Below, piece after piece: positions 15,998 through 25,817 of a stretch of DNA of 64,000 bases. The notes beneath the pieces were generated by a model. It was not told the DNA's origin. It searched no databases and saw only the letters and a list, made by a program, of their open reading frames with translations. This stretch comes from Desulfuromonas acetoxidans DSM 684. GTDB lineage: Bacteria > Desulfobacterota > Desulfuromonadia > Desulfuromonadales > Desulfuromonadaceae. The stretch lies in NCBI RefSeq assembly GCF_000167355.1, contig NZ_AAEW02000001.1:124001-188000 (forward strand), in the 5' to 3' direction. Position 1 is the stretch's first letter. Every line of letters starts with the position of its first letter. The position numbers and the translations under genes are program-made.

Positions 15998-17632
<1,635 letters not shown>

Positions 17633-17699
17633 GAATTCTCTCAACCCAAAGGTTCGAAGGACGACATCTTTCGTGTTTAGGATGGAAGCAATCGCCGTT

Positions 17700-18821
17700 C
17701 TAAACTCTGACCAATTGCATTAACGGCTCAAAAGAATAAAGCGCTGGGCGGCGACCAGAGGCTTCTGCTTTCGTAATAATTAGTCCTTCATCTAAAAGAA
17801 TACGCGTAAACCGGGCAGCAGTTCCAGAAGGGATTCCGCTGTTATTTGTAAATTTGTTATTTCTAAATACGGGATTTGTAAAAACAAAATCCAAGGCATT
17901 TACGCTCCATTTTGAAGACAACAATTCTGAAAACTTAGACTTCATCTCTTCATATAAAGTTTTTATATTTTCAGCAATCTCTAAATTTCTAATCGCTTGC
18001 TGCTCTAAAGCTTTCAAAAAAAAGACACACCAGCTCTCCCAATCTCCTGTTTCAGAGACGCTTCGCATTGTATCAATATAAGTGTCTTTATTCTCTTCGA
18101 GAAAGCCACTGATATAAAAATGAGGTGCGGAAATCAGACCACAGTTCCACATCATCAATGTAATAAGCATTCGCCCTATACGGCCATTACCGTCTTTGAA
18201 TGGATGAAGGGCTTCAAACTCGACATGAGTGATCCCTGTTTTGATTAAAACAGGTTCTGTGCTGTTATGGATATATTCAAAAAGATGATCCAAACCGGAT
18301 TCCAAGGATTCCGGAGAAATTGGCACAAACAGGATATTTTTTTTGAATTTATCCGCCAAATAATTTTGTTCGGTTTTAAATTGTCCTGGTGATTTTTTAG
18401 CTCCACGCCCCAAAGACAACAAGCGTTGATGGATTGATTTAATCAGAGACTTCGAAAGGCCATAACCATCTGACATAGCTTGCTGCGTTGCCTTCAATGC
18501 ACGTTGATACAAAATTGTTTCAATAACCTCAGATCGCACATCACCGACCTCACCTGATTCACCACTATAGTCCGCTTCATATTGCAAAATTTCATCCATT
18601 GTGCTCACCGTTCCCTCCATCCGCGAGGAAATGACGGCCTCTTGATTTCGCAAAGGTGCGAGCAATATTTCACTATTGTGCATATTTTTCAGCATCTGGT
18701 CATAGCGTGCTAAAGCATCGGTTGCCTCTACGAGAGGTTGCACCAGGCGTCCATAATCAAGATTCTCAGGAGGAAACTTTCCGTAATGATAGCCAACCGC
18801 ATTTTCTAAACTGTGCTCCAT
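17700..18821 (-). CDS. Fic family protein (intact AMPylation motif, class II)
   Basis: A 373-residue Fic protein. It has an N-terminal inhibitory helix motif SSRMEGT (about 62-68, with the regulatory Glu), the flap region (KSPGQFKTEQNYLADKF), the intact catalytic motif HPFKDGNGRIGR (about 206-217), and a C-terminal winged-helix-like segment (about 325-370, SGIPSGTAARFTRILLDEGL). Such proteins transfer AMP from ATP to a target hydroxyl and are held inactive by the Glu. Base composition is clearly more AT-rich than the neighbours (many AAA/AAT/TTT codons), and the gene lies in an insert flanked by two copies of the ABC-F 3' end, so recent transfer is likely. The upstream 70-bp tandem repeats begin about 65 bases before its start. 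Confidence 0.92.
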   Translation of the reverse strand: MEHSLENAVGYHYGKFPPENLDYGRLVQPLVEATDALARYDQMLKNMHNSEILLAPLRNQEAVISSRMEGTVSTMDEILQYEADYSGESGEVGDVRSEVIETILYQRALKATQQAMSDGYGLSKSLIKSIHQRLLSLGRGAKKSPGQFKTEQNYLADKFKKNILFVPISPESLESGLDHLFEYIHNSTEPVLIKTGITHVEFEALHPFKDGNGRIGRMLITLMMWNCGLISAPHFYISGFLEENKDTYIDTMRSVSETGDWESWCVFFLKALEQQAIRNLEIAENIKTLYEEMKSKFSELLSSKWSVNALDFVFTNPVFRNNKFTNNSGIPSGTAARFTRILLDEGLIITKAEASGRRPALYSFEPLMQLVRV

Positions 18822-18889
18822 AATGTTTTACCCACTCACTTTGACTATTGAAAATTCAAATAAATTATCTCCAAAAAGCTTTGTCATTA

Positions 18890-19140
18890 TTTTTTTTGCT
18901 TTTTTGAGATGCAAAACAGTTTAGCATAAAAACTTAAAGCTCAAACCTGTTTGTCTCTCAATTTCTTCTTTTTTTGAACCTCAAAAGAATTTGACATAAA
19001 AACTTAAAGCTCAAATCCGTTTGTCTCTCAATTTCTTCTTTTTTTGAAACTCAAAAGAATTTGACATAAAAACTTAAAGCTCAAATCCGTTTGTCTCTCA
19101 ATTTCTTCTTTTTTTGAAACTTAAGAGATTGTCGTAAAAA
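18890..19140. repeat. 70-bp direct tandem repeat, about 3.5 copies
   Basis: The block AACTTAAAGCTCAAA recurs at 18931, 19001 and 19071, exactly 70 bases apart, and the whole 70-bp unit is nearly identical in the last two copies. A degenerate fragment precedes the first copy and another follows the last (about 19131-19145). Each unit contains a poly-T tract followed by GAAnCTCAAAAGAATTTGAC. The array is very AT-rich and lies upstream of the fic gene, read away from it. There are no unique spacers, so this is not a CRISPR array. Confidence 0.9.
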
Positions 19141-19243: not shown

Positions 19244-19331
19244 ACTGGTCAACCAGGGCGGCATGACCGCCTACGAAGGGGATTACGAATACTACTTGGA
19301 TAAGACTGGGCACGATCACCGGGCGTTATAG
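19244..19331 (+). pseudogene. Orphan copy of the ABC-F gene 3' end
   Basis: Bases 19257-19331 match 17558-17632 at 68 of 75 positions and encode the same 24 residues plus stop (GGMTAYEGDYEYYLDKTGHD, then HRAL). All seven differences are synonymous. Just upstream, ACTGGTCAACC at 19244-19254 also occurs in the gene (17527-17537), but about 20 bases between are missing here. There is no start codon or domain, so it is a remnant and not a gene. It marks the right edge of the AT-rich insert carrying the Fic gene. Confidence 0.9.
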
Positions 19332-19432
19332 GTTATTGTGCCTGCGATAACAGAACCTTAGGCTGATTGTATACTGTCGTAAAATATGCTTAGATGGTCG
19401 CTTACTGTTTTTTAATCGGGAGGGGATCATTC

Positions 19433-21117: not shown

Positions 21118-21156
21118 CAAAGAGGACGTCACCATAAGGAGATGTCCTCTTTTACT
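21118..21156. terminator. Bidirectional terminator between convergent genes
   Basis: AAAGAGGAC and GTCCTCTTTT form a strong inverted repeat around a 17-19 nt loop. A T-run follows the stem on the plus strand and a shorter one on the minus strand. It lies between the stop of the repeat lipoprotein (21088) and that of the convergent GGDEF gene (21185). Confidence 0.75.
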
Positions 21157-21184: not shown

Positions 21185-22465
21185 TTACGACTCATGACAG
21201 TCCATACTTGCTTCACAACAACGATTTCGACCATCCGACTTGGCCTGATAAAGCGCTTTGTCCGCTGCGGCCATCACTTTGCCGACATGAATCGGCAAGG
21301 GTGGCACCGTCGCAACTCCGATACTGACCGTGACAGAAACGAGCGTATCATCGTCAATCCGGATCTCGGTCGTTCTTACCTTTTCCAATAACCGCTCAAT
21401 AAGTTCAGCGGTATGATCAGGGCCCGTTTCGGGTAAAATAACCGCGAATTCCTCTCCGCCAATCCGGCCGAGAATATCCGTGGCGCGCAGGCAGCTCGAC
21501 ATGATTTTGCCAAGCTCAACCAGAACGACATCCCCTCCCAGGTGCCCATAGGTATCATTGACCTTTTTGAAATGGTCGATATCGATAATCAGGAATGAAA
21601 ACGGCCGTTGGTAGCGTTCGGCGATTTGAAACAGGCTCTTCGCCTCTTCCATAAATGCCCTGCGACTTTGCAGCCCCGTCACCACATCCGTACTGGCCAA
21701 CTCTTTGAGCTTTTGATTGGCTTCTTCCGCCGCTTTCTTGGCTTGAGCGAGTTTAATTTCCACCTTTTTAATGTCATCAATATCCGTTGCCGTGCCAAAC
21801 CATTTTATAATTTTCCCCGTTTCATCCCGAATCGGGAAAGCACGGCTCAAGTACCAGGTAAAGCGACCATTTGAACGTTTAATCCGATGCTTAATTTCGT
21901 ATGCGGTTCCAGTCTGATACGCCTTTTTCCAGGCTTCGATCGTTTCGTGCTGATCATCCGGATGAACAACAGGAGCCCACGACCAACTACCATCTTCACT
22001 TTGTGTAAACCCTTCAAACTCCTTTCGGCGCTCATTGTAATAATCAACATTCCCCGACGGGTCAGCCGTCCAGACCAGTTGCGGCATGAAATCAGCGATC
22101 TGATGAAAACGCATCTCGCTTTGCTTTAATTGTTCTATGGCCAGTTTGCTTTGAGTCACGTCCTGTCCATAAAAGTTGACGTACCCCTGCTCAACAATCG
22201 GCACTAGCGTTAACGAGTAAAAACGCCTTGAAAAACTCATCTCCAGAGATAAACGGATATTCTCCTGCAGTGACTCTTTGACTTTCTGGAAAATGAACTC
22301 AGGAACCTGCTCTCCAATAGCACAATGCCATGGATTTAATATCTTAAACGCAGCCCTGTTGGCATAAAGCAATTTTCCTTGCTTGCTCACACGCATGACC
22401 GGAAAAGGATTTTCCTCTGGAAACAGGGCAATTTCTCTACATTTTCCGTCGTTATAATCGGCCAT
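21185..22465 (-). CDS. PAS-PAS-GGDEF diguanylate cyclase under riboswitch control
   Basis: Start chosen at ATG 22465 with GGGGTGAG upstream (a GTG at 22492 lacks a site); 426 residues. There are two PAS domains (about 15-115 and 125-245, the second with PAC features such as YEIKHRIKRSNGRFTWYLSR), a short coiled coil and a GGDEF domain (about 260-420). The active site reads RIGGEEF, substrate residues are in HFKKVNDTYGHLGGD, and RATD five residues before GGEEF is an intact inhibitory I-site. It should make c-di-GMP in the cytoplasm; there is no membrane segment. Upstream on the same strand lie a GEMM-type riboswitch (22682-22767) and a terminator (22611-22645), so its expression probably responds to c-di-GMP itself. 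Confidence 0.9.
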   Translation of the reverse strand: MADYNDGKCREIALFPEENPFPVMRVSKQGKLLYANRAAFKILNPWHCAIGEQVPEFIFQKVKESLQENIRLSLEMSFSRRFYSLTLVPIVEQGYVNFYGQDVTQSKLAIEQLKQSEMRFHQIADFMPQLVWTADPSGNVDYYNERRKEFEGFTQSEDGSWSWAPVVHPDDQHETIEAWKKAYQTGTAYEIKHRIKRSNGRFTWYLSRAFPIRDETGKIIKWFGTATDIDDIKKVEIKLAQAKKAAEEANQKLKELASTDVVTGLQSRRAFMEEAKSLFQIAERYQRPFSFLIIDIDHFKKVNDTYGHLGGDVVLVELGKIMSSCLRATDILGRIGGEEFAVILPETGPDHTAELIERLLEKVRTTEIRIDDDTLVSVTVSIGVATVPPLPIHVGKVMAAADKALYQAKSDGRNRCCEASMDCHES

Positions 22466-22610
22466 GCTTTTACTCACCCCATGTTTTCTCACCTATAGAA
22501 CTGGATGGGATCGCGCGACTCGCCCTGTAAAAGGTACAATTTCAGCCGCATCAGGTTTCCTTCTCAGAGAAAACACCCCCCACTCAGAAAAAGCAGTTCA
22601 CCGCCCAAAA

Positions 22611-22645
22611 ACAAAAAGTGCCCTCCTTTACGCGAAGAAGAGCAC
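22611..22645 (-). terminator. Riboswitch expression-platform terminator
   Basis: On the minus strand GTGCTCTT pairs imperfectly with the GGAGGGCAC side around the CTTCGCGTAAA region, followed by TTTTTGTTTTT. It lies between the GEMM aptamer and the GGDEF gene start and so fits a transcription-terminating switch. Confidence 0.75.
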
Positions 22646-22681
22646 CTCTGTAGTCCTTCATTGACAAAGGACGGGAACCAG

Positions 22682-22767
22682 CCTCTTCGGGAACCCGGCG
22701 ATCCTGTCAAACAGGACCCGTGGCTTTGCGTCACCGGATTACTCCGGTTTTGCCTTTATCGGAGAGA
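22682..22767 (-). promoter_or_regulatory. GEMM-I (c-di-GMP-I type) riboswitch aptamer
   Basis: Read on the minus strand, the sequence contains the GEMM core in order: AAGGCAAAACC, GGTGACGCAAAGCCACGGG, a short hairpin TCCTGTTTGACAGGA, and CGCCGGGTTCCC. The outer P1 stem can form between CTCTCCG (22760-22766) and CGAAGAG (22683-22689). The base aligned with Vc2 G20 appears to be G, which favours c-di-GMP over 3',3'-cGAMP, but the alignment was done by eye. A terminator and a diguanylate cyclase gene follow on the same strand. Confidence 0.92.
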
Positions 22768-22990
22768 TATATCTACGTATGTTATGTTCAGTCTAGAAAC
22801 TATAAGAATCTGCTAACCATGCTAGCACAACATCTTACGAAGGCAAATTTTATCTCGGTTTGCCGACAGGAGGCACATGATAAAATTCGTCGCTACGACA
22901 AAGACTTGCTTTAATTGCACCATGCCGAGCATCCCTCGACGAACCATGCTCGAACATTTAACAGCCTCTGAAAGCGAAAGGCGCAGAAGG

Positions 22991-23115
22991 GGAGATTCGC
23001 AAACTACGCCAAACACTTCCTGTATTTGCCTGCGTCGGCTCCCCTTCGCTCGCTGACGCGGCCATCCCTGGCCGCTTTTCTGACATTCAGTCAGCGCTCG
23101 CTACGCTTCGAATCT
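22991..23115. repeat. Intergenic palindromic repeat region
   Basis: GGAGATTCG at about 22993 and CGAATCTCC at about 23107 form an inverted repeat enclosing about 110 bases with further hairpins, e.g. CGGCCATCCCTGGCCG and GCGTC...GACGC. No coding content. The outer repeat resembles the T-arm of the tRNA-Ser next to it, which may be chance. It looks like a degenerate interspersed repeat; I cannot name it. Confidence 0.4.
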
Positions 23116-23130
23116 CCTTACAGCATAATA

Positions 23131-23173
23131 AAAACAAAGGGACGTCGCCCGTTGGGCAACATCCCTTTGTTTA
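23131..23173 (-). terminator. Terminator downstream of tRNA-Ser
   Basis: On the minus strand AAACAAAGGGATGTTGCCC pairs with GGGCGACGTCCCTTTGTTT, leaving a small loop, and is followed by TTTTATTAT. The stem begins five bases past the tRNA CCA end, so it ends the tadA-tRNA transcript. Confidence 0.85.
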
Positions 23174-23177
23174 TTAA

Positions 23178-23265
23178 TGGCGGAGAGGGGGAGATTCGAA
23201 CTCCCGGTCCCTTTCGGGACAATTGATTTCGAGTCAATCACCTTCGGCCGCTCGGACACCTCTCC
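23178..23265 (-). tRNA. tRNA-Ser (anticodon CGA)
   Basis: An 88-nt tRNA read on the minus strand. The acceptor stem is GGAGAGG/CCTCTCC with discriminator G and an encoded CCA end. The anticodon stem ATTGA/TCAAT encloses the loop CTCGAAA, giving anticodon CGA. A long variable arm (TGTCCCGAAAGGGACC) is typical of serine tRNAs, and the T-arm is GGGAGTTCGAATCTCCC. It starts 11 bases after the tadA stop codon. Confidence 0.95.
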
Positions 23266-24371: not shown

Positions 24372-25817
24372 ATGATCAGCAAACGCCGCCTTATTGTCAC
24401 ACTCACCCTGCTTTTGGCTAGTGGCTTTCTCCTCACCAGCCTGGCAAGCTATTATGCTTCGCTGAATTCCCTGCGTGTCCGAATTGACGACAATGAGTTG
24501 CCGTTGACCAGTGACACCATCTATTCAGAAATCCAGCGTGATCTGCTGCAGCCCCTGTTTATCTCATCACTCATGGCCAGTGATACGTTTTTGCGTGAAT
24601 GGGTGACGGAGGGGGAGCAGCACGCCGACAAAGTGGTGCGCTACCTCAATGAGATCAAGCAGCGCTACGGCACTGTTACCAGCTTTTTTGTCTCCGATCA
24701 TACCTATCATTACTACTATGCCGACGGGATTTTGAAAACCGTATCAGCGGATGAACCACGCGATGTGTGGTATTTCCGTGTCCGCGACATGCAGCAAGAT
24801 TACGAAATCAATGTCGACCCGGACATGGCCAACCATGACAGCATGACCATTTTTATCAATTACCGGGTAAAGGATTATCAGGATCAGTTCATCGGCGCCA
24901 CCGGTGTCGGGCTGACTGTTTCTGCGGTCAAAAACCTGATTGAAAATTATCAACAAAATTATCAGCGCACGATCTTCTTTGTCGATCCGCAGGGAGTGCT
25001 GACTCTGGCCGGCAAGGAGTTCCCGACATCGATCACCTCTTTGGCGGATATTGAAGGGCTGTCCGCCCATCGCGATCAGCTGCTCAATGAACAGCAAAAC
25101 ACCCTTGTGTATCAACGCAATGGCGAAACCTTTCACCTCAACACCCGCTACATTAGCGAATTCGGCTGGTACTTGATGGTGGAACAATCGGAAGAACCGA
25201 TGCTGCGCCAGATTCGCCTGACTCTGCTGATAAATGTGGCGATCTGCTTTACAGTGACCTTTATTGTCATCATCCTGACCCAGATGACCATCAACCGTTA
25301 CCAGAAGCGTTTGGAAGAGATGGCTCTGACCGATAAGCTGACGCGCATCGCCAATCGCCAAGCCATTGATCTTCACCTGCAACAACTGTTCAAAGAGCAA
25401 CAACGTCACCAGGTCCCGTTCAGCGTCATTCTGTTCGATCTCGATAATTTTAAACAGATCAACGACACCCATGGCCACATAGCCGGTGACGCGGTGCTGC
25501 AGAACATCGCCAATATCGTGACCACGGAACTTCGCGACTGTGATGTTGTCGGCCGCTGGGGCGGTGAAGAGTTTCTCGTACTACTCAAGCATTGCCAGCT
25601 TGACGACGCCCTGAAACGTGCAGAGTCGATCCGACTGGCTATTCAGTCCTACGCCATCGGCTTTGAGGAGCAAACCTTGTACACGACTGCCAGCTTCGGC
25701 GTGGTGGAATACCGTGATCAGGACGACCACAACACGCTGCTGAAACGGGCCGATCAAGCCCTGTATATCGCCAAGCAGAACGGCAAAAACCGCTGTGAAG
25801 TGATTGCCCAGCTTTAA
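24372..25817 (+). CDS. Membrane diguanylate cyclase with periplasmic Cache domain
   Basis: A 481-residue protein: TM1 at about 7-27, a periplasmic double-Cache-like sensor (about 35-275, with YSEIQRDLLQPLFISSLMAS and the YYADGILKTVSADEPRDVWY region), TM2 at about 285-308, a short linker, and a GGDEF domain (about 320-480). The active site is RWGGEEF, the substrate region is NFKQINDTHGHIAGD, and RDCD gives an intact I-site. It should couple an extracellular small-molecule signal to c-di-GMP synthesis. The TAA stop shares the palindrome TTAA with the convergent LysR gene, a 4-base overlap of stop codons. Confidence 0.92.
   Translation: MISKRRLIVTLTLLLASGFLLTSLASYYASLNSLRVRIDDNELPLTSDTIYSEIQRDLLQPLFISSLMASDTFLREWVTEGEQHADKVVRYLNEIKQRYGTVTSFFVSDHTYHYYYADGILKTVSADEPRDVWYFRVRDMQQDYEINVDPDMANHDSMTIFINYRVKDYQDQFIGATGVGLTVSAVKNLIENYQQNYQRTIFFVDPQGVLTLAGKEFPTSITSLADIEGLSAHRDQLLNEQQNTLVYQRNGETFHLNTRYISEFGWYLMVEQSEEPMLRQIRLTLLINVAICFTVTFIVIILTQMTINRYQKRLEEMALTDKLTRIANRQAIDLHLQQLFKEQQRHQVPFSVILFDLDNFKQINDTHGHIAGDAVLQNIANIVTTELRDCDVVGRWGGEEFLVLLKHCQLDDALKRAESIRLAIQSYAIGFEEQTLYTTASFGVVEYRDQDDHNTLLKRADQALYIAKQNGKNRCEVIAQL

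Follow-up and report, generated by a model that had tools for sequence, protein, structure and literature searches.

A predicted OFF-type c-di-GMP-I riboswitch ahead of a diguanylate cyclase gene suggests negative feedback

The window, the whole 64,000-nucleotide stretch of Desulfuromonas acetoxidans DSM 684 that was analysed, carries on its minus strand a c-di-GMP-I aptamer, an intrinsic terminator and a PAS-GGDEF gene in succession. Sequence and folding together make it likely that this unit is a transcription-terminating OFF riboswitch before a canonical diguanylate cyclase, which would place the enzyme under negative feedback by its own product. The aptamer and the cyclase are ordinary and their pairing is uncommon; of the possible signs of the loop, the negative one has the best support. 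The leader contains the following elements.

22760..22767, minus strand: 5' strand of helix P1, TCTCTCCG (folding)
22763-22685, minus strand: c-di-GMP-I (GEMM-I) aptamer with a GUAA tetraloop and G20/A47/C92 (cmscan, RF01051 score, alignment)
22682..22689, minus strand: 3' strand of P1, CGAAGAGG, common to P1 and the antiterminator (folding)
22653..22672, minus strand: spacer hairpin inside the antiterminator (folds)
22633..22640, minus strand: antiterminator partner CTTCTTCG / CUUCUUCG in the 5' arm of the terminator (8 bp to the P1 3' strand)
22614..22649, minus strand: intrinsic terminator hairpin, then a T-rich tail (terminator scan, folding)

The 187-nt leader folds better than its dinucleotide shuffles (z -2.79; 4 of 200 shuffles were as good). 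The intrinsic terminator proposed by the first-pass annotation is present as a terminator-like hairpin at 22649-22614 with 15 pairs (5 of them G-C) and a T-rich tail, and a scan of 3 kb on both strands yielded 11 terminator-like sites against a shuffle mean of 3.2. The hairpin starts 37 nt past the aptamer, is separate from P1 and folds alongside it. The 8-bp complementarity between the P1 3' strand and the terminator 5' arm, which can be read directly in the sequence, was reached by 1% of 3000 shuffles that preserved base composition alone. No promoter was found upstream of the leader by a consensus scan. The leader is probably a transcript separate from that of the upstream tRNA-Ser, because the tRNA has its own strong terminator (23172-23132). 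Just 5' of the aptamer lies a palindrome, TGCTAgcatggtTAGCA (TGCTA-N7-TAGCA; 22827-22811, minus strand), possibly a regulator site.

Folding of the nascent leader at successive lengths indicates which structures compete. At 155 nt, the P1 3' strand pairs with the terminator 5' arm in a 6-bp antiterminator register, and at 159-171 nt in an 8-bp register (22689-22682 with 22640-22633) that encloses the spacer hairpin. Between 155 and 171 nt, the antiterminator wins over aptamer plus P1 by 2.8-5.4 kcal/mol, a margin that ligand binding in the nM range could plausibly overturn. Ensemble energies point in the same direction, although the antiterminator share is variable, from 0.28 to 0.74, at 159-171 nt, where the P1 share without ligand is below 0.01. 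At lengths of at least 175 nt, the aptamer, P1 and the terminator co-fold and beat the antiterminator. The first-pass annotation had asked whether the terminator competes with P1; in these folds it does not, and it is the antiterminator that does. It speaks against the OFF reading that, in equilibrium folding, the full-length RNA terminates regardless of ligand, and that its ligand-free optimum, in which P1 and P3 are broken, beats the aptamer fold by 1.1-3.1 kcal/mol; the switch would therefore have to be kinetic. The OFF switch Cd1 is kinetic and follows the same logic of terminator, antiterminator and aptamer-completing strand, as far as the available part of its report describes (PMC9262584). 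By folding, the window leader has both marks of a Cd1-like OFF switch, namely a terminator compatible with the aptamer and an antiterminator that shares the P1 3' strand.

At low c-di-GMP, the P1 3' strand (22689-22682) would pair with the terminator 5' arm (22640-22633) in the nascent RNA, and RNA polymerase, with the antiterminator formed, would read into the cyclase gene. At high c-di-GMP, the aptamer and P1 would be held together and the antiterminator blocked, upon which the terminator would fold and expression would drop. Since ligand would favour P1 and P1 the terminator, the expression platform predicts an OFF switch, and thus negative feedback, for a loop whose sign the first-pass annotation had left open. 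c-di-GMP would lower the synthesis of the cyclase at the RNA level and probably also its activity through the I-site.

The layout was compared with that of other GEMM loci in the order. A first set of 133 loci was made up of 120 regions (the best-scoring of those listed among 684 matches in 98 genomes), the hits from the family and three loci of the own genome. This set has 158 aptamers in 127 loci, and six loci gave no nhmmer match (L005, L130, L131, L132, L134, and L135). A larger set, with a further 60 regions from five GEMM-rich genomes, has 192 loci, of which 186 have an aptamer, and 222 aptamers, the last figure being a slight overcount because G079:C99:139128 falls in two loci and L129 and L133 share partial copies. 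In the first set, 121 of the 158 aptamers have a terminator within 220 nt, which is clear of the P1 3' strand in 113 cases and overlaps it in eight. Complementarity of at least 6 bp between terminator and P1 3' strand occurs in 79 of the 113, against a mean of 14.5 and a maximum of 23 in 50 shuffles that again preserved base composition alone, and it favours the terminator 5' arm and loop (mean 6.40 bp) over the 3' arm (3.97). Own pairs (mean 6.40 bp) are only slightly better than pairs with swapped terminators (mean 6.12, maximum 6.35 in 300 swaps), and where the P1 strand deviates (35 loci) own terminators do no better than swapped ones (5.51 vs 5.42), so the pattern is mostly conserved sequence with little covariation. 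The P1 strand of the window pairs 8 bp with its own terminator and equally well with only two others of the 113.

The eight overlapping terminators, one of which (L240) leads a cyclase, have an ON-like layout and so speak for the opposite sign, in which c-di-GMP would prevent the terminator and the cyclase would amplify its own signal by positive feedback, as in Geobacter GEMM-Ib. Vc2 (PMC12564702) and the Geobacter cGAMP switches (PMC6456294) are ON switches in the available parts of both sources. The window terminator, however, begins 37 nt past the aptamer and co-folds with it, and because it is separate from P1 the ON reading is disfavoured and appears unlikely.

The predicted OFF riboswitch and its cyclase lie beside a tRNA gene, in a setting with these features.

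23178..23265, minus strand: tRNA-Ser (CGA), beside which the riboswitch-cyclase unit lies (ARAGORN, Rfam tRNA)
23132..23172, minus strand: terminator of the upstream tRNA-Ser (terminator scan, fold)
22977..22999, minus strand: degenerate repeat of the 3' end of tRNA-Ser, 87% over 23 nt (repeat D3; stretch shared with G008)
21120..21151, minus strand: terminator-like hairpin past the cyclase gene, with 35 of 50 aligned positions matching the tRNA terminator

The sister species G001 lacks the riboswitch-cyclase segment: there, the stretches 24341-23133 and 21133-19770 of the window lie side by side, and the tRNA-Ser terminator runs into an LRV-like gene. The site in G008 has a second tRNA 3' end with terminator, and in G002 the tRNA is followed by the apparent start of an integrase gene (by eye). 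Recombination seems to have a hot spot at the tRNA-Ser (CGA) site (23265-21088 in the window), where what follows the tRNA differs in G000, G001, G002, G007, and G008. Gain of the unit at this hot spot would fit the sequences, and loss from G001 is a possible alternative. Tentatively, a self-limiting cassette of about 2 kb, consisting of the OFF riboswitch and the I-site cyclase, may have been gained at the tRNA-Ser recombination site by a single species and have come with a brake of two layers, in which the RNA would stop new enzyme at low c-di-GMP and the I-site would stop the enzyme at higher c-di-GMP. If so, a newly acquired cyclase would not flood the resident network.

Searches of the genus (10 genomes), 277 class genomes, relatives' contigs and plasmids found no ortholog of the whole unit. 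The best non-self match in the genus search, which included the own genome among its 10, covers residues 175-426 at 42%. The 277 class genomes, searched at E <= 1e-44 with the best six candidates per genome scored, likewise yielded no full-length ortholog of the protein but gave 10 other matches: one in G067 (58% over residues 242-429), one in G098 (59% over residues 114-268) and eight at 33-37% over the PAS-GGDEF part. A scan of the relatives' contigs gave 28-47% in the best segment for the 80 relatives retained out of 592, and among 12 plasmid records the five listed match 8% of the query. By nhmmer, one of the 10 matching loci (L271) has a GEMM-like stretch, which is truncated. This stretch (L271:880-932) covers the first 53 of 81 positions at E 2.3e-6 and is joined to a frame resembling a PAS-histidine kinase, in which the PAS shares 59% identity with the PAS of the window cyclase. 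In the own genome, just one other GEMM-I (L004) exceeds the cut-off; it lies ahead of genes for a PAS-histidine kinase and a response regulator, and the same operon is also found behind GEMM in G001 and G008; no terminator was seen in the L004 leader, the hairpin 172 nt downstream being inside the gene.

This distribution bears on the reading that there is no ligand-dependent switch, only a decayed or constitutive attenuator before a cyclase acquired in one species. Among the 10 genus genomes the unit was found only in the own genome, and it is absent at the homologous site of G001; the best fold at full length disrupts part of the aptamer, and another locus of the order (L271) has a truncated GEMM. 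Against this, the ligand-contact positions, the tetraloop and the P1 pairing are kept, the aptamer scores 72.7 bits and the ORF is intact, and we regard this reading as quite improbable.

The window has other features of note around the unit. A second GGDEF gene (dCache-GGDEF; 24372-25817, plus strand) lies nearby in the opposite direction, behind a cNMP-binding protein. Three tandem copies of a 70-nt unit (18880-19128) and an 80-nt duplication (17554-17633 and 19253-19332; 90%) flank the frame 17700-18821, where the lowest-G+C kilobase of the window is found (0.392, 18001-19000). A fluoride riboswitch (32146-32076, minus strand; 53.5 bits) is located upstream of a 453-aa frame (31947-30586) that by eye looks like a CLC-type channel.

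The aptamer noted in the first-pass annotation is confirmed on the minus strand, where cmscan of the 64-kb window placed it at 22763-22685 (E 2.8e-13, 70.5 bits to RF03168). The GEMM-I model RF01051 matched the same aptamer in a search of the own genome at 72.7 bits (E 3.4e-14), above its threshold of 35. The RF03168 (c-di-GMP-I-UAU) threshold of 65.9 is also exceeded, yet the aptamer lacks U20 and U92: both columns are U in the UAU consensus and read G and C, respectively, here. We take residue numbers 20, 47 and 92 at the ligand to be those of the Vc2 structure, and the name UAU presumably denotes U at 20 and 92, the positions being taken from the model consensus. The aptamer carries the G20/A47/C92 of c-di-GMP-I riboswitches and does not have the A20 of GEMM-Ib (3',3'-cGAMP). 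Since RF01051 gives more bits than RF03168 and G and C stand where UAU has U, the switch is by its residues of the ordinary c-di-GMP type, from which the ligand is predicted. Position-20 G and position-92 C are invariant in 36 aligned aptamers from the genus, family and order, on which RNAalifold again predicts the inner helices of the aptamer; for 12 of 18 pairs, one or more sequences differ on both sides. Across the 158 aptamers, 127 are G20/A47/C92, 24 are A20/A47/C92, and the other seven have gaps or C20. Residues 20 and 92 disfavour UAU or cGAMP specificity, and the family reported by cmscan can mislead on ligand class if the key residues go unread.

A different ligand (cGAMP or that of the UAU variant), which would turn the loop into cross-talk rather than feedback, is suggested by the c-di-GMP-I-UAU call of cmscan and by how common A20 (predicted cGAMP) aptamers are in the order (the 24 of 158), but is very improbable given G20 and C92 in place of U and U, the higher RF01051 score and the finding, in the available text of the source, that cGAMP switches are distinguished by A20 and that the change A20G converts such a switch to c-di-GMP (PMC6456294).

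The gene behind the c-di-GMP-type aptamer encodes the following.

21185..22492, minus strand: ORF of the PAS-GGDEF diguanylate cyclase, likelier start ATG 22465 (ORF and domain search)
21221..21697, minus strand: GGDEF domain, residues 266-424 (Pfam PF00990, E 4.1e-47)
21476..21487, minus strand: I-site motif RATD, residues 336-339 (translation)
21446..21460, minus strand: active-site motif GGEEF, residues 345-349 (translation)
22473..22480, minus strand: likely ribosome-binding site GGGGTGAG (inferred from reading the sequence)

The ORF (22492-21185) is intact with 435 aa, although the likelier start is the ATG at 22465, 7 nt 3' of GGGGTGAG, which would give 426 aa. The PAS-PAS-GGDEF architecture claimed by the first-pass annotation holds for the GGDEF domain (E 4.1e-47) and the second PAS (PAS_3, 9.2e-15), whereas the N-terminal PAS is weak (PAS_8, 22.7 bits against a cut-off of 21.8) with no stretch below E 0.001 alone, so the assignment is firm for the second PAS only. 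The GG[DE]EF motif appears as GGEEF, a substrate-contact Asp is found in NDTYGHLGGD, and the RATD noted earlier as a protein I-site is present as an RxxD motif five residues ahead of GGEEF. The position of the base-contacting Asp in NDTYGHLGGD is one that we take from PleD. Relatives of solved structure, by sequence, are GGDEF proteins, including PleD and WspR. Hypr cGAMP cyclases have Ser where canonical cyclases have Asp, according to the part of the source available (PMC8835794), and the window cyclase retains the Asp. On these motifs and structural relatives, we infer that the product of the enzyme should be c-di-GMP, to which its own switch would respond, as had been proposed; the G20 aptamer agrees with this, and the I-site is a putative one.

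The aptamer and the cyclase are each of a known kind, and their combination is uncommon. In the order's GEMM loci, sampled best-scoring first and with other phyla outside the sample, a GGDEF gene lies downstream at 13 of 186 aptamer loci, where downstream genes are the first six same-strand ORFs of at least 70 aa up to the end of the contig or a distance of roughly 3 kb. The census counts GGDEF rather than HD-GYP genes, covers some 1.5 kb at L126-L135, and would miss a GGDEF gene farther down. Eight of the 13 are GGDEF-EAL genes, the 274-aa GGDEF frame of L165 looks truncated, and L238, L240 and L252 are stand-alone cyclases behind A20 aptamers, which leaves the window as the single case among the 186 sampled loci where an intact stand-alone cyclase follows a G20 aptamer. 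In all, six loci have an A20 (predicted cGAMP) aptamer before GGDEF, as L196, L216 and L249 precede GGDEF-EAL genes, and the GGDEF domains behind A20 aptamers keep the Asp in the printed frames (by eye). By sequence, this arrangement would let cGAMP control c-di-GMP enzymes. An enrichment of A20 before GGDEF genes in the first set (6/13 vs 18/114 others; Fisher p 0.017) was dropped in the larger set (6/13 vs 42/173; p 0.10).

c-di-GMP riboswitches mostly control outputs. In the window, the same molecule would restrain a single enzyme through both its RNA and its protein; the sign of this control is predicted, and the leader of about 190 nt is testable in vitro. GEMM was discovered upstream of certain diguanylate cyclase and phosphodiesterase genes among others, as stated in the available part of a review (PMC12564702); the window does not differ in kind from these RNAs and adds one more example, for which a sign is predicted. 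Geobacter GEMM-Ib with the Hypr cyclase GacA is similar in that the aptamer fold is the same and a GGDEF-family enzyme makes the ligand, as far as the accessible text reports (PMC6456294), but that system has A20, cGAMP and an ON switch, whereas the window has G20, the canonical enzyme Asp and an OFF layout. Cd1 of Clostridioides difficile, in the portion of its report available, combines a class I aptamer, an aptamer-compatible terminator and an antiterminator using the aptamer-completing strand into an OFF switch (PMC9262584), the arrangement that the window resembles. The organism and the downstream gene differ, the window gene encoding the presumed ligand-making enzyme, and the sign was measured for Cd1 while that of the window is predicted.
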